The translations under genes were made by a program, and so were the position numbers. A stretch of DNA of 20,930 nucleotides. Origin: a virus. The number at the start of each line of letters is the position of its first letter. Position 1 is the stretch's first letter. Of the stretch, positions 3,157 through 11,480 are shown piece by piece. The stretch spans positions 1-20,930 of IMG/VR virus record IMGVR_UViG_3300017719_000279, one strand, 5' to 3'. The notes beneath the pieces were generated by a model. That model was not told the origin of the DNA and searched no databases. It saw only the letters and a program-made list of their open reading frames with translations.

Positions 3157-4649
3157 TGGCATGGTATAACAGAATATTAGGCATTAATGAGCCTAAAAAG
3201 AAAAAAAGACAAGCATATAGAAGAAGCTACACTGGAGCTAACACTGGAAGATTGTTTGCAGATTTTGTTACCACGTCTACAAGTGCCGATGCTGAGATAA
3301 AAGATAACATAAGAATTTTAAGAGATAGAGCAAGAGAATTAGCAAGAAACGATAGCTATATTGCTAGATACCTTAACCTGATGGTGTCTAATGTTATCGG
3401 TAAGCATGGCATAAGAGTTTCCAGTAAAGGACGTGACGATAATGGGTCATTGGACATTGCTGGAAACCAGCTCATTGAAAACGCTTGGAAAGAATGGGGT
3501 CAGGTCGGCAATTGCACAACCAACGGAAGATTATCATTTTTAGATTGTCAAAAAATATTTATTGAATCTCTATGTAGAGATGGCGAAGTATTAATAAGAA
3601 AAATTAAAAAGAAAGATTCACCTTTTGGTTTTGAATTACAGTTTTTAGAATCAGATCATTTAGATGAAAATAAAAATGATGTTTATAAAGCTACTGGCAA
3701 TCGTATTAAGATGGGTGTAGAAGTAGATAAATATGATAAACCAGTTGCTTATCATTTATTTAAAGACCACCCTTACGATAGAGTTTATTTAGCTCAAGCA
3801 CAACACATTAGAGTTCCTGCTGATGAGATTATCCATGCTTACCTGCCTGCTAGAGCAGAACAAACTAGAGGCGTTTCTTTGGTTGCTACAGCAATGGCTA
3901 ATGTGAAAATGTTGAATGGTTATTTAGAAGCGGAGATAGTTGCAGCAAGAGTTGGTGCATCTAAAATGGGTTTCTTTACATCAGGTGATGGTGATGGTTA
4001 TGTTGGTGATGGTGAATATGAAGATACCTTTAATCCAACAATGAACGCACAGGCTGGGGTCTTTGAACAATTACCAGCAGGTATGGATTTTAAAGCATTT
4101 GATCCAACTCACCCAACCTCTGCATTTGAATCATTTACAACTAATGTTTTAAGAAGTATCGCATCAGGTTTAAATATTTCTTATCATTCTTTAAGTAATG
4201 ACCTTACATCAGTGAATTACAGCTCAATAAGACAAGGTGCTTTGGAAGATAGAAGCATGTATCAAATATATCAGCAATTTGTTATAGATCATTTTGTAGA
4301 CCCAGTTTTTAAATCTTGGTTAGAAATGTCTATATCAAATGGCTATATCAATTTGCCTATGAGTAAAGTTGATAAATTTTCTAAGGCTGTTAATTACATA
4401 CCAAGAAGTTTCGCTTGGATTGATCCTTTAAAAGAAATGCAGGCTAATGTAATTGGTTTGCAAAATGGAACATTAAGCTATTCAGACATTGCTGGTGCTT
4501 ATGGAAGAGATACAGAAGAGCTTTTTGAACAACATCAAAAAGAAATTGAATTAGCTAAACAATATGGTATTGAATTAGCATATCAACCATTTGGTCAAAA
4601 AAATCCAGTAGAAGCAAATATAAATGGCGGAGATCAGGAAGATGAGTAA
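3156..4649 (+). CDS. Portal protein, lambda gpB family
   Basis: The portal forms the ring at one capsid vertex through which DNA enters and leaves and to which connector and tail attach. The 497-residue protein shows the lambda-type portal N-terminal signature (RARELARNDSYIARYLNLMV, about 59-78) followed by SNVIGKHGIRV. It also has the later conserved LTSVNYSSIRQGALEDRSMY stretch near 350, and an acidic C-terminus. The length is near lambda gpB (533). The ATG overlaps the preceding stop (TAATG), indicating translational coupling. Its last 8 bases overlap the next gene, which matches the usual portal-protease-capsid order. Confidence 0.93.
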   Translation: MAWYNRILGINEPKKKKRQAYRRSYTGANTGRLFADFVTTSTSADAEIKDNIRILRDRARELARNDSYIARYLNLMVSNVIGKHGIRVSSKGRDDNGSLDIAGNQLIENAWKEWGQVGNCTTNGRLSFLDCQKIFIESLCRDGEVLIRKIKKKDSPFGFELQFLESDHLDENKNDVYKATGNRIKMGVEVDKYDKPVAYHLFKDHPYDRVYLAQAQHIRVPADEIIHAYLPARAEQTRGVSLVATAMANVKMLNGYLEAEIVAARVGASKMGFFTSGDGDGYVGDGEYEDTFNPTMNAQAGVFEQLPAGMDFKAFDPTHPTSAFESFTTNVLRSIASGLNISYHSLSNDLTSVNYSSIRQGALEDRSMYQIYQQFVIDHFVDPVFKSWLEMSISNGYINLPMSKVDKFSKAVNYIPRSFAWIDPLKEMQANVIGLQNGTLSYSDIAGAYGRDTEELFEQHQKEIELAKQYGIELAYQPFGQKNPVEANINGGDQEDE

Positions 4650-7203
4650 ACCTAATCAAGGCATGAAAGAAGAAGCTCGTAAAGGCTTGGACTGGAGAAA
4701 AGAATTTGGTAGGGGTGGAACTAGAATTGGAGCTGAAAGAGCAAACCAAATATTAAATAACGAAAATTTGTCTGATGAAACTATTAAAAGGATGTATAGT
4801 TTTTTCAGTAGACATGAAGTAGATAAAAAAGCAGAAGGATTTAGACAAGGTGAAAAAGGCTATCCATCAAACGGAAGAATAGCTTGGGCTTTATGGGGTG
4901 GAGATGCTGGATTTAGATGGTCTAAAAAATTAGTCAATCAAATGAAAGATGATAGAAGTCTTGAGGAAAGGGGTACTGAAGACACATTAAGAGAGAAAGC
5001 TAAAGAACACAATGAAGATGTTGGAGATAATCCAGCAAAAAGAACAAGCTACTCAACATTACAAAAAGTTTACAACAGAGGGATTGGTGCTTATAACACA
5101 AACCCTTCAAGTGTTAGACCTAATGTTACATCAAAAGAACAATGGGCAATGGCACGAGTTAATAATTTTTTACGAGTCTTAAGGACTGGTAAATACAAGT
5201 CAGGGAAGCATGACACTGATCTGCTACCTGAAGGACATCCTTTATCAACCAAAAACAAGGAGAAAGCTATGGAAAATAAAGAAGATAGACATATCCTTAA
5301 TGTTAGCGAAACTGATGATAAAGTTATCGTTGAATTTGCGAAGCATGAGGGTGTCGAACATGAAGGTGAAGAAGTAGAGATGACTGATGAGGTTTCTATG
5401 ACTGCATCAAGTGAAGATGAAAGGAAAGTAATTGATATGCCTATGAAATATAGAACTATTGATTTATCTAAACATTCTTATCTTGATGAAGAAAATAGAA
5501 CTGTTCGTGTAGGAGTTTCTTCTGAAGAACCTGTTGAAAGAAGTTTTGGGATGGAAGTCCTAGGACATTCTGCTGGCGATATAAACATGGAGTTTATAAA
5601 CAGTGGACGTGCACCTCTTCTCTTGGATCATGATATGACCAAGCAAATAGGTGTAATTGAAAGATTCGAACTAGATGAGACTGCTAAAAGGTCTTTAGCA
5701 GTAGTCAGATTTGGAAAATCTGCTTTGGCTCAAGAAGTGTTTGAAGACGTAAAAGATGGGATAAGGATGAACATATCGGTAGGTTATCGCATCGACAAAC
5801 TGGAAAGAATGAATAACAAAGATGAGAATTACTATAAAGCTCAATGGACACCTATGGAAGTTTCTTCTGTAAGCGTTCCTGCTGACCAGTCAAGACTTGT
5901 TGGAGTTGGTCGTTCTGAAGATAAAAATAATATTAACTTTAAGGAGATTAAAATGTCAGAAAATAAAGACATAAACCTAGACGAAGTTAGAACTCAAACT
6001 ATTGATGATGCTAAAGCTGAATTTAAAAGAAACTCAAAAGAGATTATAGATTTAGCCGCTAGACACAATAAAAGAGATTTAGCTGACAAAGCAATTAGTG
6101 ATGGTATCTCTGTTGAAGAATTTAGAGGCGTATTATTAGAAAATATTTCTAATGACACACCTTTAGAGACTCCTTCAGAAATCGGCATGACTAAAGAAGA
6201 AGTAAGAGAATTTAGCTTGGTAAAAGCGATTCGAGCAATGGCAAACCCTTCAGACAGAAGAGCACAACAAGATGCTGCTTTTGAATTTGAATGTTCTGCT
6301 GAGGCTGCAAGACAGTATGGTAAAGATGCACAAGGCATTATGTTACCTGCTGAAGTCCTAAGAACTTGGGGCAAAAGAGATATCAACTCATCTGATGATT
6401 CAACTTTAATAGCTGAAGATTACAGAGGAGATTCTTTTATTGATGTACTAAGAAATGAATCTAGCGTAATGCAAGCTGGAGCTACTATGCTTAGAGGATT
6501 ACAAGGAAATGTTGTAATACCTAAGAAAACTGCTGCTTCATCTGCTGGTTGGATTGCTACAGAAGGTAGTGCTGCTGCTGAAAGTGAATTTACTTCAGGT
6601 TCAGTAACAATGAGTCCTAAAGTAATTGGTGCTTTCACTGATGCAACAAGACTATTACTACAACAATCATCATTAGATGTTGAGAACTTAATCAGAGACG
6701 ACCTAACAAAATCAATCGCTACTGCAATTGACTTAGGTGCTTTAGCTGGTTCAGGTTCAAGTGGTCAACCAACAGGTATTGCTAATACTTCAGGTATTAA
6801 CACTACTACATTTGCTGCTGCAAACCCAACATGGGCTGAGATCGTAGCAATGGAAAGTGCTGTCGCTAATGACAATGCTTTAAATGGTTCTTTAGCTTAC
6901 ATCTGTAGACCTGCTGATTTTGGTACTTTGAAAACAACTGAAAAAGCAACTAATACTGCTCAATTCGTTGTTTCTCCTGACAATAGCATGAATGGCTATA
7001 ACGTTGTCAGAAGTAACCAAGTAACAAGTGGTGATTTCTACTTTGGTAATTTTGCAGACCTATTAATTGGTATGTATGGTGGACTAGATATTACTGTTGA
7101 TCCTTATGCGTTATCAACTTCAGGTGGAGTAAGAATTGTTGCTCTACAAACTGTTGATGTTGCTGTAAGACATGCAGTATCTTTCTGTAAATCATCTGAC
7201 TAA
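4642..7203 (+). CDS. Fused unknown N-terminal region, S78 prohead protease and HK97-type major capsid protein
   Basis: One 853-residue frame covers three modules. Residues 1-209 hold two small conserved-looking regions: WRKEFGRGGTRIGAERAN to LWGGDAGFRWSKKLVNQM, and RTSYSTLQKVYNRGIGAYNT to DTDLLPEGHPL. I associate the second with the DUF5824 family, but cannot confirm this. Residues 210-437 are an HK97-type prohead protease with candidate catalytic His330 (LLLDHD) and Ser379 (NISVGY). Residues 438-853 are the major capsid protein. The start chosen is ATG 4642, with GGAG at 4629-4632, 9 nt upstream; an ATG at 4624 adds six residues. Perfect internal start signals precede the protease and capsid modules (listed separately), so the full-length product may be a minor species. 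Confidence 0.9.
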   Translation: MSKPNQGMKEEARKGLDWRKEFGRGGTRIGAERANQILNNENLSDETIKRMYSFFSRHEVDKKAEGFRQGEKGYPSNGRIAWALWGGDAGFRWSKKLVNQMKDDRSLEERGTEDTLREKAKEHNEDVGDNPAKRTSYSTLQKVYNRGIGAYNTNPSSVRPNVTSKEQWAMARVNNFLRVLRTGKYKSGKHDTDLLPEGHPLSTKNKEKAMENKEDRHILNVSETDDKVIVEFAKHEGVEHEGEEVEMTDEVSMTASSEDERKVIDMPMKYRTIDLSKHSYLDEENRTVRVGVSSEEPVERSFGMEVLGHSAGDINMEFINSGRAPLLLDHDMTKQIGVIERFELDETAKRSLAVVRFGKSALAQEVFEDVKDGIRMNISVGYRIDKLERMNNKDENYYKAQWTPMEVSSVSVPADQSRLVGVGRSEDKNNINFKEIKMSENKDINLDEVRTQTIDDAKAEFKRNSKEIIDLAARHNKRDLADKAISDGISVEEFRGVLLENISNDTPLETPSEIGMTKEEVREFSLVKAIRAMANPSDRRAQQDAAFEFECSAEAARQYGKDAQGIMLPAEVLRTWGKRDINSSDDSTLIAEDYRGDSFIDVLRNESSVMQAGATMLRGLQGNVVIPKKTAASSAGWIATEGSAAAESEFTSGSVTMSPKVIGAFTDATRLLLQQSSLDVENLIRDDLTKSIATAIDLGALAGSGSSGQPTGIANTSGINTTTFAAANPTWAEIVAMESAVANDNALNGSLAYICRPADFGTLKTTEKATNTAQFVVSPDNSMNGYNVVRSNQVTSGDFYFGNFADLLIGMYGGLDITVDPYALSTSGGVRIVALQTVDVAVRHAVSFCKSSD
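5257..5271 (+). promoter_or_regulatory. Internal ribosome binding site and ATG for the protease module
   Basis: AAGGAG at 5257-5262 lies 6 nt before an in-frame ATG at 5269, exactly at the junction between the unknown N-terminal region and the protease. Initiation here would give a 644-residue protease-capsid fusion beginning MENKEDRHILN. In the longer product the same bases encode NKEKAM. The signal is as strong as any true start in the window. Confidence 0.7.
5941..5955 (+). promoter_or_regulatory. Internal ribosome binding site and ATG for the major capsid protein
   Basis: AAGGAG at 5941-5946 lies 6 nt before an in-frame ATG at 5953, at the junction between the protease and the capsid module. 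Spacing and hexamer are identical to those of the internal protease start. Initiation here would make a free capsid protein beginning MSENKDINLDEV, the species needed in hundreds of copies. Confidence 0.8.
5953..7203 (+). CDS. Major capsid protein, HK97 fold (nested product)
   Basis: This is the 416-residue protein expected from the internal ATG at 5953. Residues 1 to about 100 are charged and helical (DEVRTQTIDDAKAEFKRNSK and following) and fit the delta/scaffold domain that HK97-type capsid proteins carry and lose on maturation. The shell domain begins near EDYRGDSFIDVLRNESSVMQ. It continues through VVIPKKTAASSAGWIATEGS, ALAGSGSSGQPTGIANTSGI and the C-terminal VDPYALSTSGGVRIVALQTV, all familiar in HK97-like capsid proteins. 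It assembles the icosahedral shell around the portal, and the protease encoded just upstream in the same frame should trim it. The fold call is firm; separate expression is inferred from the start signal. Confidence 0.85.
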   Translation: MSENKDINLDEVRTQTIDDAKAEFKRNSKEIIDLAARHNKRDLADKAISDGISVEEFRGVLLENISNDTPLETPSEIGMTKEEVREFSLVKAIRAMANPSDRRAQQDAAFEFECSAEAARQYGKDAQGIMLPAEVLRTWGKRDINSSDDSTLIAEDYRGDSFIDVLRNESSVMQAGATMLRGLQGNVVIPKKTAASSAGWIATEGSAAAESEFTSGSVTMSPKVIGAFTDATRLLLQQSSLDVENLIRDDLTKSIATAIDLGALAGSGSSGQPTGIANTSGINTTTFAAANPTWAEIVAMESAVANDNALNGSLAYICRPADFGTLKTTEKATNTAQFVVSPDNSMNGYNVVRSNQVTSGDFYFGNFADLLIGMYGGLDITVDPYALSTSGGVRIVALQTVDVAVRHAVSFCKSSD

Positions 7204-7224
7204 TTAGCTGATGCTTAAATGGAA

Positions 7225-7244
7225 TGGGGGTAGTAATACCCCCA
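7225..7244 (+). terminator. GNRA-capped hairpin after the capsid gene
   Basis: GGGGGTA (7226-7232) and TACCCCC (7237-7243) form a perfect 7-bp stem closed by the tetraloop GTAA (a GNRA loop). A T-A pair (7225/7244) extends it to 8 bp. It begins 22 bases after the capsid stop codon. No T-run follows, so it is at best a partial terminator; it may instead protect the 3' end of the capsid message. Confidence 0.55.
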
Positions 7245-7252
7245 ACTTAAAT

Positions 7253-7468
7253 ATGAAAAAATATAAAATCTTAATAGATACAATGGCTGGCGGTTCTAAA
7301 GTACATGCTGGTGATATAGTTGAACTGCCTGAGCATGAAGGTCATTCTTTATGTAGTTATGGTAAAGCTGAAGCTCATACAGCTAAACCTAAAGCAAAAA
7401 AAGAAGATAGAAGCGTAGGTTTAAAAACCTCAAAAGTAAAAGCTCCTAAGACTAGAGCTAAAAAGTAA
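7253..7468 (+). CDS. Small basic phage protein of unknown function
   Basis: The 71-residue protein has a compact N-terminal part (MKKYKILIDTMAGG, then VHAGDIVELPEHEGHSLCSY) that reads like a small beta domain. A Lys/Ala-rich tail of about 30 residues follows (KPKAKKEDR...KTRAKK) and could bind nucleic acid or acidic capsid surfaces. An upstream ATG at 7211 is in frame but would run through the 7225-7244 hairpin, so the ATG at 7253 is preferred, although it lacks a clear ribosome binding site. Small proteins of this layout often sit between capsid and connector genes in phages. I do not assign a function. Confidence 0.65.
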   Translation: MKKYKILIDTMAGGSKVHAGDIVELPEHEGHSLCSYGKAEAHTAKPKAKKEDRSVGLKTSKVKAPKTRAKK

Positions 7469-8679: not shown

Positions 8680-8847
8680 ATGAAAATGATTAGTCCAAAT
8701 GGCAAAGTTTCTATAGATGCTCACCCTTCTAAGGTTGAGTCTTTATTGAATATGGGTTGGAAAGAGGAAGCAGTCCATTCGCAAGATAAAATTAAATCTT
8801 CTTCTAAGAAAAAGTCGAAAGACGAGGTAGAAAATGGCAACACATAA
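8680..8847 (+). CDS. Small basic protein of unknown function
   Basis: The 55-residue protein starts at ATG 8680 with a perfect AGGAGG (8668-8673) 6 nt upstream; an in-frame ATG at 8632 lies inside the previous gene and is not preferred. The N-terminal part (ISPNGKVSIDAHPSKVESLL, then NMGWKEE) looks like a small folded domain ending in a conserved-looking GW. The C-terminus is Lys/Ser-rich (KSSSKKKSKDE). Like the protein at 7253, it pairs a short domain with a basic tail. It overlaps the tube protein gene by 14 bp. No function is assigned. Confidence 0.7.
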   Translation: MKMISPNGKVSIDAHPSKVESLLNMGWKEEAVHSQDKIKSSSKKKSKDEVENGNT

Positions 8848-9223
8848 AGGAAGTGAAGGTACTGTAAAAGTCGGTACTAATGCTGTGGCTGAAATTAGAT
8901 CATACTCACTTGAGGAAACTGCTGATACTTTAGAAGATACTTCAATGGGTGATTCTGCTAGAACTTATAAATCATCACTGACTTCTTTCTCAGGAAGTAT
9001 AGATGTATTTTGGGATGAGACTGATACTAGTGGTCAGGGTGCTTTAAGCATTGGCTCAGAAGTAACTCTTAATGTATATCCTGAAGGAGATACAGCAGGT
9101 GATACTTATTATACTGGTTCAGCTATTGTTACTGGAGTAACAAGAAGTGGATCATTTGATGGTCTAGTTGAAGCAAGTGTTTCAGTTCAGGGAACTGGTG
9201 CATTAACATCAACAACAGTATAA
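8834..9223 (+). CDS. Major tail tube protein
   Basis: The tube protein stacks as rings to form the tail shaft. The 129-residue sequence shows the typical tube pattern: GTVKVGTNAVAEIRSYSLEE at the N-terminus, then TADTLEDTSMGD and YKSSLTSFSGSIDVFWDETD, with a C-terminal GSAIVTGVTRSGSFDGLVEA strand region. It lacks the extra C-terminal Ig-like domain seen in lambda gpV. GAGG (8824-8827) lies 6 nt before the ATG. Its place between the terminator and the tail chaperone pair is as expected. Confidence 0.88.
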   Translation: MATHKGSEGTVKVGTNAVAEIRSYSLEETADTLEDTSMGDSARTYKSSLTSFSGSIDVFWDETDTSGQGALSIGSEVTLNVYPEGDTAGDTYYTGSAIVTGVTRSGSFDGLVEASVSVQGTGALTSTTV

Positions 9224-9227
9224 GAAA

Positions 9228-9566
9228 ATGTCAGTTATAGATAACGCAAAGAAGCATTTTGATAGCCTAGAAACTAGAATTATAGAAGTCCCTGAATGGG
9301 GTGAGGATGAAGATAGTCCTTTAAAGATTTATTGCAAGCCAATAACCCTTTCAGAGACTTCTAAATTTATGAAACTAGCCCAAGATGATGACGTACAGCT
9401 TTTAGCTTATGTTTTAATTTATAAAGCATTAGATGAAGCTGGAGAAAAGTTATTTACTATCGCTGATAAGAAAACCTTATTGGAGAGGGTTGATAGAGAT
9501 GTATTAATTAGAGTTTCTAGCGAAATGATGAATAATGTTTCGCAGGAAGAAGTTAAAAAAAAGTAA
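9228..9566 (+). CDS. Tail assembly chaperone, gpG-like (zero-frame product)
   Basis: The 112-residue acidic protein (SPLKIYCKPITLSETSKFMK, then LLAYVLIYKALDEAG and IRVSSEMMNNVSQEEV) has the style of siphovirus tail assembly chaperones. These coat the tape measure and recruit tube subunits, and are not part of the virion. It sits between tube and tape measure genes, the fixed place for this family. It ends in KKK-stop immediately after a canonical slippery site, and the -1 frame continues. There is no strong ribosome binding site before the ATG. Confidence 0.85.
   Translation: MSVIDNAKKHFDSLETRIIEVPEWGEDEDSPLKIYCKPITLSETSKFMKLAQDDDVQLLAYVLIYKALDEAGEKLFTIADKKTLLERVDRDVLIRVSSEMMNNVSQEEVKKK
9557..9563 (+). 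promoter_or_regulatory. Programmed -1 ribosomal frameshift site (A AAA AAG)
   Basis: The heptamer A AAA AAG is in register with the zero frame (AAA AAG codons). In the -1 frame a TAA ends at 9556, and the zero frame stops at 9564-9566, so a switch is only possible within these 7 nt. AGGAAG at 9544-9549 lies upstream like a stimulatory Shine-Dalgarno element, and a stem-loop follows at 9578-9605. Confidence 0.85.
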
Positions 9567-9715
9567 TACAAGATAAGCAGCTATACATAAAATATGCACT
9601 AGCTGAAAAACTTAATAAGACTTTAACTGAAATTGAAGAAATGACAGTTGAGGAATTTCAAGGATGGTTGGCTTATCTTGAAATAAAGGAAGAAAAGAAT
9701 GGCAGCTCTAACTAA
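9563..9715 (+). CDS. gpT-like extension made by -1 frameshift
   Basis: After a -1 slip on the heptamer at 9557-9563, the ribosome reads 50 more codons to a TAA at 9713-9715. These encode VIQDKQLYIKYALAEKLNKT, then LTEIEEMTVEEFQGWLAYLE and IKEEKNGSSN. The EEMTVEEFQGWLAYLEIK stretch closely resembles the T domain of lambda-like GT proteins. The long product would have 162 residues and is expected at a low ratio. The extension overlaps the tape measure start by 17 bp and has no start signal of its own. Confidence 0.85.
   Translation, partial: VIQDKQLYIKYALAEKLNKTLTEIEEMTVEEFQGWLAYLEIKEEKNGSSN
9578..9605 (+). promoter_or_regulatory. Stem-loop downstream of the frameshift site
   Basis: CAGCTA (9578-9583) pairs with TAGCTG (9600-9605), and inside it CATA (9586-9589) pairs with TATG (9593-9596) around an AAA loop. 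The structure starts 14 nt after the slippery heptamer. A downstream structure commonly stimulates -1 frameshifting; this one is AT-rich and modest in stability. Confidence 0.5.
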
Positions 9716-11480
9716 ATCAGATATTCATTTTAATTTTGTTGGAAATGATAAATCTGCTAAAGCGGTTAATAGTTTTAAAAAAAATATTAATGGTACGAAT
9801 CAGGCTTTAGCAAGTCTGAGAAATACTATTGTTGCTGCTTTTAGTGTTAGAGAAATAGTTAATGCTGCTAACGTGATGATAGGCGTTGAAAATAGAATGA
9901 ACGCCTTGACTGGTAGTGCAGATAAGACAGCAATAGCCATGAATCACATGAGAAGAATCGCTTCTGATTCAAGATCAGATTTTGATGCGGTTGCCATGTT
10001 ATATACAAGGCTTGCACTAGCTACAGATCATTTGGGTGCAACGCAAAAAGATGTTGCTGATGCTACACAAACAGTAGCAAATACCTTTATTATTGCTGGT
10101 TCTCATGCTCAAGAGGCAAATAACTCTGCTAGACAGTTAGCACAGGGTTTAGCTTCAGGAGCTTTAAGAGGTGATGAGCTTAGATCAGTAATGGAAAACA
10201 ATACCATTCTGACAAAAATGTTAGCTGAAGGATTAGGTAAAACTATTGGTGAACTTAGAGAGTTTGGTCATGCTGGTAAATTAACAGCCGAGGTCGTAAT
10301 GCCAATATTAATAGCTGGCATGAAAGAAACTAATGACCAAATTAAAGACATGCCCATGACACTAGGACAGGCTGGCGTAGCTTTAAGAAATAACTTTCAA
10401 TTTATTGTTGGTGATGTGCAAAAAGCCACTAATGGTTTTTCAACTTTTGCTGCTGTAGTAAATAAATTTGCTGAGAATTTAGATGTAATATTGATACCAG
10501 TTCTTGCAGGAACTCTTTTGGCTGTAAATAAATTAAGATTAGGTTTTGTTGCATTAAACGTAACCATGAGAGCAAATCCAGTTATTGCTTTAATAAGCGG
10601 TTTTACTGCTGTGCTTTCTGCGGCTTATATTTTTAGAAATGAAATAGGAACAGTCTTTCAAGAGGTATTTAAAAGAATGTTACCAAATATGATTGATAGA
10701 TTTAAAATAAAATTTAAAGAGCTGCAAAAAATGATTAGCTTCAAAGAAAAGGATAAAGAGCTTGATGCAGAAATAGTACAATTAACAAAAAATATAGAAA
10801 AAAGAACAAAAGCAGAATTTAAAAAAATTAATATACCATCTTTTATGGACATGCTTCTTGGTAGAGATCCTAATGGTGGTGGTGGAGATGGTAAGACTGG
10901 ATTTACACCATTAACAGCACTAGAACAATTCTTAATGGATGCTGAAAAGGGTTATAAGGATTTCTTTACTAATATCAAAACCATGCAAGAAGAAATGCAA
11001 GGTGTATTTAAAAAATCTTATGATGGTCTTACTCAGTTGACTATGGATTTCTTAAAAACAGGTAAAGCATCATTCAAAGATTTTGCTACTTCTATTGTTA
11101 CAGAATTAATAAGAATTGCAGTACAAAAATTAGTTATAGATAAAATGTTTGCATCATTTGGTAGTTTTTTTAAACCAAAAATAGACACATCAGGTTTAAG
11201 CATACCTACAACAATACCTTCAGGTGATGGTGGTGGTTTTACAGGATTTGGTGCAAGAGCAGGTGGTGTAGATGGCAAGGGTGGATTCCCAGCAATACTG
11301 CATCCTAATGAATCTGTTATAGATCACACCAAAGGTCAAGGTATGGGAGCTACAGTCAACTTTAATATATCAACAGTAGATGCTGCTGGATTTGATCAGT
11401 TATTAGCATCAAGAAAAGGATTGATAACATCAATCATAAACAATGCCATGAATAATCAAGGCAAGATGGGAGTAGTATAA
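9699..11480 (+). CDS. Tail tape measure protein
   Basis: The tape measure sets tail length and leaves the tail during DNA injection. The 593-residue protein has the conserved tape measure N-terminal domain (about 40-220, including TGSADKTAIAMNHMRRIASD, LASGALRGDELRSVMENN and GHAGKLTAEVVMPILIAG). Two hydrophobic segments follow near 258-280 (VILIPVLAGTLLAV) and 297-315 (VIALISGFTAVLSAAYIF). A lambda-type C-terminal region comes next (SYDGLTQLTMDFLKTGKASF, FATSIVTELIRIAVQKLVID), then Gly-rich sequence and LHPNESVIDHTKGQG. AAGGA lies 8 nt before the ATG. At about 0.15 nm per residue the tail would be near 90 nm. No lysozyme or peptidase motif is visible. Confidence 0.95.
   Translation: MAALTKSDIHFNFVGNDKSAKAVNSFKKNINGTNQALASLRNTIVAAFSVREIVNAANVMIGVENRMNALTGSADKTAIAMNHMRRIASDSRSDFDAVAMLYTRLALATDHLGATQKDVADATQTVANTFIIAGSHAQEANNSARQLAQGLASGALRGDELRSVMENNTILTKMLAEGLGKTIGELREFGHAGKLTAEVVMPILIAGMKETNDQIKDMPMTLGQAGVALRNNFQFIVGDVQKATNGFSTFAAVVNKFAENLDVILIPVLAGTLLAVNKLRLGFVALNVTMRANPVIALISGFTAVLSAAYIFRNEIGTVFQEVFKRMLPNMIDRFKIKFKELQKMISFKEKDKELDAEIVQLTKNIEKRTKAEFKKINIPSFMDMLLGRDPNGGGGDGKTGFTPLTALEQFLMDAEKGYKDFFTNIKTMQEEMQGVFKKSYDGLTQLTMDFLKTGKASFKDFATSIVTELIRIAVQKLVIDKMFASFGSFFKPKIDTSGLSIPTTIPSGDGGGFTGFGARAGGVDGKGGFPAILHPNESVIDHTKGQGMGATVNFNISTVDAAGFDQLLASRKGLITSIINNAMNNQGKMGVV

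Follow-up and report, generated by a model that had tools for sequence, protein, structure and literature searches.

The tail-gene region of a 20,930-nt viral sequence (IMG/VR record IMGVR_UViG_3300017719_000279, positions 1 to 20,930; hereafter the window) contains the following features, all located on the forward strand:

8834..9223 (+): major tail (tube) protein gene, the upstream neighbour of G (phrog_1407, major tail protein, E=3.5e-16; Pfam Phage_tail_2 below the cut-off, 20.7 vs 23.8 bits)
9228..9566 (+): G, the predicted tail assembly chaperone and zero-frame product of 112 aa (tail assembly chaperone families phrog_344, E=2e-7, and phrog_16513, E=1.8e-5)
9543..9547 (+): CAGGA, a Shine-Dalgarno (SD)-like word and possible stimulator, 9 nt 5' of the heptamer (codon -7 is CAG in 34/34 rows, codon -6 is GAA in 33/33 Glu rows)
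9554..9556 (+): -1 frame TAA, the upstream edge of a seven-base box (81/81 in clade A; at a varying distance in clades B-D)
9557..9563 (+): slippery heptamer A_AAA_AAG (81/81 in clade A; A_AAA_AAG or A_AAA_AAC in 328/328 sites of four clades)
9563..9715 (+): T, a -1 frame extension of 50 aa without a start codon near its beginning (dN/dS 0.066 in clade A; phrog_337, E=1.1e-3)
9564..9566 (+): zero-frame stop TAA adjoining the heptamer (a stop adjoins the heptamer in 328/328 sites; TAA, TAG and TGA are all used)
9578..9605 (+): possible weak hairpin CAGCTA..TAGCTG, 14 nt 3' of the heptamer (MFE -7.6; doubtful)
9699..11480 (+): tape measure protein gene, starting inside T (Pfam TMP_3, E=4.7e-48)

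The resulting gene order is tube, G, T and tape measure, and the tape measure gene comes next in all 10 phage records examined for the G/T gene. The AlphaFold model predicted for G (pLDDT 86) matched the HK97 tail assembly chaperone 2OB9 in Foldseek (E=4.8e-4), with a VIA-align Z of 9.5 and an rmsd of 3.5 over 100 residues; pLDDT was below 50 for the last nine residues, those over the slip site. Among the sequence families, Pfam Phage_TAC_13 scored below its cut-off on G (19.1 vs 28.8 bits), the G of HTVC112P gave no PHROG match at E<=1, and the Pfam families of lambda, Phage_TAC_2 and Phage_tail_T, were matched by none of the tested relatives' proteins, including those of the window. Elsewhere in the window, an 859-aa ORF at 4624-7203 carries a DUF5824 match (residues 139-198) and a Phage_capsid match (602-856), an apparent fusion in the head module. 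Scans of host genome contigs with the G proteins of phi3LM21 and of the window found no relatives, and thus neither a prophage nor a host for the window. Cultured members of this phage family infect Pelagibacter and Roseobacter.

The family phrog_337 was matched by the T of the window (E=1.1e-3), of Roseobacter phage CRP-823 from clade D (2.3e-6) and of lambda (4.7e-7), which suggests, weakly for the window alone, a T-like domain related to lambda T. In phrog_16513 (160 positions), G aligned over positions 6-111 (E=1.8e-5) and T, weakly, over 120-155 (E=0.14), in the fused order; the T of RcCronus matches the T part of the same family at 3.6e-22. The T of HTVC026P had no PHROG match at E<=1, and Pfam Phage_tail_T was matched by lambda T alone among the proteins tested. 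The predicted T model is a small helical domain (pLDDT 83). When it was compared with BFVD using Foldseek, no match fell under 0.001; the best had E=0.012, and the RcRhea tail chaperone ranked fourth with E=0.28.

Both reading frames were read directly. The zero-frame codons from ATG 9228 close as GTT (9552-9554), AAA, AAA, AAG (9561-9563) and TAA (9564-9566), and the -1 frame has TAA at 9554-9556, followed by AAA AAA GTA ATA and so on up to a stop at TAA 9713-9715. Only positions 9557-9563 are open to a -1 shift, and A_AAA_AAG stands there in the X_XXY_YYZ slippery phase, placing an in-phase heptamer in the G/T overlap. The bracketing of these seven bases by the two stops, claimed in the initial annotation, is exact. 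A -1 shift would join the 112 aa of G to the 50-aa extension (from GTA 9563) in a 162-aa fusion. Screening 18 ORFs of the window for ten slippery types gave seven in-phase heptamers, and only A_AAA_AAG at 9557-9563 adjoins the zero-frame stop. An in-phase A_AAA_AAA occurs at 7396-7402 within the ORF 7211-7468, 63 nt before the ORF stop; its -1 frame closes after four codons and gives no long product.

Relatives of the site were gathered by four single-protein queries, namely the window (clade A), HTVC026P, with 202P (clade B), HTVC112P, with 111P (clade C), and Roseobacter phage CRP-823, with 811 and 821 (clade D). Clade A comprises the window and 80 loci (81 sites), and clades B, C and D contain 82, 82 and 83 sites, respectively, for a total of 328 (the window, 320 IMG/VR loci and 7 isolates). 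The distinct GT DNAs numbered 48, 66, 65 and 67 in clades A-D. Each clade represents the best 80 of its confirmed relatives (158 in A, 427 in B, at least 593 in C and 93 in D); the clade counts are thus biased toward close relatives of the respective query, and sites of one clade are not independent. For phi3LM21, one usable relative was obtained (L331), with a second (L332) left out because its match covered 26 residues only, and RcCronus had one copy (L333, 100% identical).

At all 328 sites, a slippery heptamer immediately precedes the G stop; it is AAAAAAG in clades A (81) and C (82) and AAAAAAC in clades B (82) and D (83). The G stop is TAA in A and B, TAG (71) or TAA (11) in C, and TAA (75) or TGA (8) in D. 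The A-run measures 8 bases in 81/81 sites of A, 9 in 82/82 of B, 7 in 82/82 of C and 6-7 in 83/83 of D. The upstream -1 stop lies at 10 nt in 81/81 sites of clade A and at 16-55, 10-97 and 10-100 nt in clades B, C and D, where the 10-nt spacing was found in 0/82, 14/82 and 8/83 loci, respectively. The seven-base box formed by both stops is a fixed trait of clade A, and the heptamer adjoining the stop is common to all four clades. The description of the site as fixed to exactly seven bases therefore holds for clade A (81/81) and fails in B-D, where the upstream -1 stop wanders. A zero slip-to-stop distance was also observed in CRP-406 and in the more distant RcCronus; the distance is 3 nt (one extra codon) in phi3LM21 and L331, and 15 nt in lambda. 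Against the mean slip-site-to-stop distances given for PRFect, 26 nt in the SEA-PHAGES set and 36 nt in the Xu set (PMC10885494), zero is a mild variant.

Read in the -1 frame, T showed dN/dS values of 0.066, 0.196, 0.154 and 0.109 in clades A, B, C and D, indicating purifying selection. Reading this DNA in its zero and +1 frames gave values of 0.68-5.11 and a mean of 2.6-6.8 stops per sequence. These estimates follow a simple Nei-Gojobori procedure with at most 1500 random pairs over the first 42 T codons (33/53/45/43 distinct rows, A/B/C/D), leaving out loci with an incomplete T (1 in C, 3 in D) and taking G at its modal length only. At the junction itself, the 13-mer TAAAAAAAAGTAA is present in 81/81 of clade A (the window and 80 loci; 48 distinct GT DNAs), kept despite a mean synonymous divergence (pS) of 0.42 in T. 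From codon use alone, KKK written as AAA-AAA-AAG is expected at about 14%.

The codon table was compiled from 34, 60, 54 and 47 distinct rows (A-D). Codon invariance sets the slip site apart from other parts of G only in clade D; in A, B and C, invariant codons are common elsewhere too, with 14/34, 8/33 and 13/37 conserved two-codon residues, respectively, keeping a single codon. Clade D is the most diverged set (T pS 0.68), and 3 of its 14 conserved two-codon residues in G have an invariant codon, namely the two slippery codons and Glu -6. Over 300 nt of clade D (59 distinct), the sole invariant run of at least 7 nt consists of the heptamer and the first base of the stop, and the bases immediately 5' of the heptamer vary while the heptamer is constant. 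In the other clades such runs are more numerous (two in B, four in C and eight in A), and one of them covers the heptamer. The entropy profile was based on 42, 65, 59 and 59 distinct rows (A-D) long enough for the span. Concerning possible initiation within T, a start codon that would keep all but 8 T residues occurs in 0/81 A, 0/82 B, 0/81 C and 11/80 D loci, and ATG, GTG and TTG are wholly absent from the open T frame in 11 A and 10 D loci.

Based on these sequence comparisons, the locus is best explained by programmed -1 ribosomal frameshifting at A_AAA_AAG, which would yield G (112 aa) and, at low frequency, GT (162 aa); we assign this reading a probability of about 0.93. Some ribosomes would slip back one base at the heptamer and produce the longer GT, and the rest would stop as G. 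By analogy with lambda, G would bind the tape measure protein and the T part would recruit tail-tube subunits. What we infer is that the shift takes place, that it takes place on the ribosome, how frequent it is and what G and GT do. The G/GT reading proposed in the initial annotation is well supported by the gene order, the fold, the T homology and the purifying selection on the -1 frame, and it is further backed by the lack of a start codon near the T beginning and by a heptamer that is invariant within each of the four clades. Measured shifting in an HK97-like phage-chaperone cluster was 6% and 7% for two genes (PMC3711429), and in lambda a 30:1 ratio of the two products is described as crucial for assembly (PMC5009743). 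In E. coli, A_AAA_AAG with stimulators reportedly ranks with the heptamers most prone to shifting, and A_AAA_AAC is called inefficient (PMC4066793). The use of A_AAA_AAC in clades B and D counts against the reading, although this E. coli ranking may not hold in the phage hosts.

The statement that the sequence requires a programmed -1 frameshift was too strong, since slippage of the polymerase from A8 to A9 gives the same protein. In this alternative, RNA polymerase adds one A to the A8 run, and part of the mRNAs is then read into T. A-runs of more than 7 are described as serving transcriptional slippage (PMC3711429), and both the A8 of the window and clade A and the A9 of clade B are above this bar. 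However, the runs of 7 in C and 6-7 in D do not reach it, and the phased heptamer is nonetheless kept there. The heptamers of phi3LM21 and RcCronus are AAAAAAC and GGGAAAC, respectively, and in clade D the bases immediately 5' of the heptamer change and the heptamer does not. Ribosomal slippage is thus favoured over polymerase slippage, because the phased heptamer is constant across A-runs of 6 to 9 and a relative carries GGGAAAC; we consider the transcriptional route highly improbable. Mass spectrometry of the 162-residue product cannot tell the two apart, because the protein is identical either way, and trypsin would be expected to cut at the KKK junction of GT.

T could also be made separately, by reinitiation or from an internal start past the G stop, and its position directly past that stop would suit such a route, as would the ATG at codon 27, which is the first start codon of T in 39/81 A loci. 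Nevertheless, no start lies near the T beginning in A, B and C, nor in 69/80 loci of D, and 21 loci lack one entirely. An ATG stands at codon 27 in just 18/34 distinct A rows, and a separate T start leaves the invariant heptamer unexplained, making separate synthesis scarcely credible.

Within the ribosomal frameshifting reading, the stop codon adjoining the heptamer might itself be a working part of the recoding signal, a tentative and rather doubtful proposal drawn from its placement. The ribosome would pause with TAA, TAG or TGA in the A site, and the tRNAs in the E and P sites would slip back. A weaker inference than the frameshift itself is that some slips may take place while the stop codon occupies the A site and release factors compete for it, because the stop lies directly 3' of the heptamer at every site examined in the four clades. 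If true, the G:GT ratio would be set by release-factor competition and would follow the termination capacity of the host. A bacterial study using the HIV heptamer reportedly found that a stop directly 3' lowered shifting and that additional RF2 abolished it; this was interpreted as slippage while the stop occupies the A site (PMC4373837). Because the stop lowered the shift in that measurement, it would tune the ratio here rather than drive the shift.

We give about an even chance to the adjoining stop having no recoding role, with the frameshift untouched: G would end where a stop costs nothing, and selection would keep G short. Stop codons of genes are conserved anyway, and the extra codon before the stop in phi3LM21 and L331, together with the 15 nt in lambda, agrees with this explanation. 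It is harder to reconcile with a stop whose zero distance is kept in four clades, even where G identity falls to about 25-30%, and through changes among TAA, TAG and TGA. It also leaves aside the third base of T codon 1, which is free for Val/Leu and is always stop-keeping. In this four-fold degenerate codon, the third base is A in 34/34 rows of A, 60/60 of B and 54/54 of C, and A or G in 47/47 of D; therefore, coding for the T protein does not account for the stop.

The possible stimulators vary from clade to clade, and none is common to all four. The CAGGA at 9543-9547 is invariant in the 20 rows of the clade A alignment A2, and an SD-like word was found in 34/34 A, 0/60 B, 45/54 C and 46/47 D distinct rows. 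A codon-resampling test of this word was not significant in any clade (0.54, 1.0, 0.31 and 0.46 for A-D). A general SD-like stimulator was rejected, given its absence in B and the non-significant resampling everywhere. In clade D, codon -6 of G is the Glu codon GAG in 47/47 distinct rows, with the other Glu codons of G varying, and this GAG mostly yields GAGGA six bases before the heptamer.

Downstream folding was tested in all 26, 39, 39 and 36 distinct sequence windows (A-D), with 25 control windows per clade. Mean folding z values were -1.31 in A (control -0.71), -0.39 in B (-1.16), -2.52 in C (-1.04) and -0.46 in D (-0.81). A downstream hairpin stands out clearly in C only, and in B and D the controls are more structured than the tested windows. 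The hairpin at 9578-9605 is absent from the RNAalifold consensus of 20 clade A rows. A common downstream structure was also rejected; RNAalifold on these rows returned a long-range fold with one compensatory pair of 28, which we do not believe. Clade C (L171-L250) carries a near-invariant hairpin, AGCGACC/GGTCGCT, located 3-25 nt after the G stop. Both arms are nearly invariant (36 distinct sequences), so that covariation neither supports nor rejects the pairing. The codons of the arms are fixed (Ser AGC in 53/53 Ser rows, Arg AGG in 54/54 and Ser TCG in 54/54) whereas other codons vary, which is consistent with a constraint at the RNA level.

T is unannotated in all eight marine isolates examined (HTVC026P, 202P, 111P, 112P, CRP-811, 821, 823 and 406), showing that annotation misses this domain. 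Two of them, HTVC111P and HTVC112P, carry an annotated "hypothetical protein" gene antisense to T (L084 1906-2058 (-) and L085 1906-2052 (-)). These antisense genes are probably spurious, because the T frame on the opposite strand is under selection in clade C. The annotation of Sinorhizobium phage phi3LM21 places a 36-aa "hypothetical protein" within T (L086 1896-2006), and there the whole T and the frameshift are unannotated. No published account of this site in these phages was found in the open-access literature searched. The locus is a well-supported example of a recoded tail gene from a phage group that is mostly uncultured and has pelagiphages and roseophages as relatives. The clades with A_AAA_AAC offer useful natural material, as the junction residue, Asn or Lys, would report the timing of the slip.

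Several known systems resemble this site in part. The window G model has the same fold as the HK97 chaperone 2OB9 (Z 9.5) at 12% identity. In the Rhodobacter phage RcCronus (NC_042049), the tail chaperone is annotated as a joined two-piece gene, its zero-frame stop adjoins the heptamer and its G is 26% identical; it differs in its heptamer (G_GGA_AAC), its stop (TGA) and a -1 stop 70 nt upstream. The E. coli dnaX gene uses the same A_AAA_AAG, but there the -1 product is the shorter one and the protein is unrelated. The dnaX site has an SD-like upstream element and a downstream hairpin (PMC3711429), and most of clade C has elements of both kinds. In Rous sarcoma virus and barley yellow dwarf virus, a stop occupies the "intercodon" after the -1 slippery heptamer, as here (PMC4373837), although these are viruses of eukaryotes with unrelated proteins.

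Among tailed phages, G/GT -1 frameshifting has long been known (PMC5009743). It is treated as usual in most phages of a Rhodobacter phage paper (PMC8601537), and a pelagiphage paper guesses that a phage-coded S21 may aid such frameshifting in phage Kolga (PMC8163748). The lambda G/GT site is likewise located between the tail tube and tape measure genes, with T in the -1 frame and an in-phase X_XXY_YYZ heptamer, and phrog_337 is common to lambda T and window T. It differs in that G_GGA_AAG lies 15 nt before the G stop, whereas the A_AAA_AAG of the window adjoins it; in the length of T, which is 139 codons in the -1 frame from the G stop in lambda and 50 codons in the window; and in the Pfam families of lambda G and T, which the window proteins do not match. 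Overall, the window site is an ordinary, well-supported member of the G/GT type, with a stop-adjoining layout that is kept throughout the sample.
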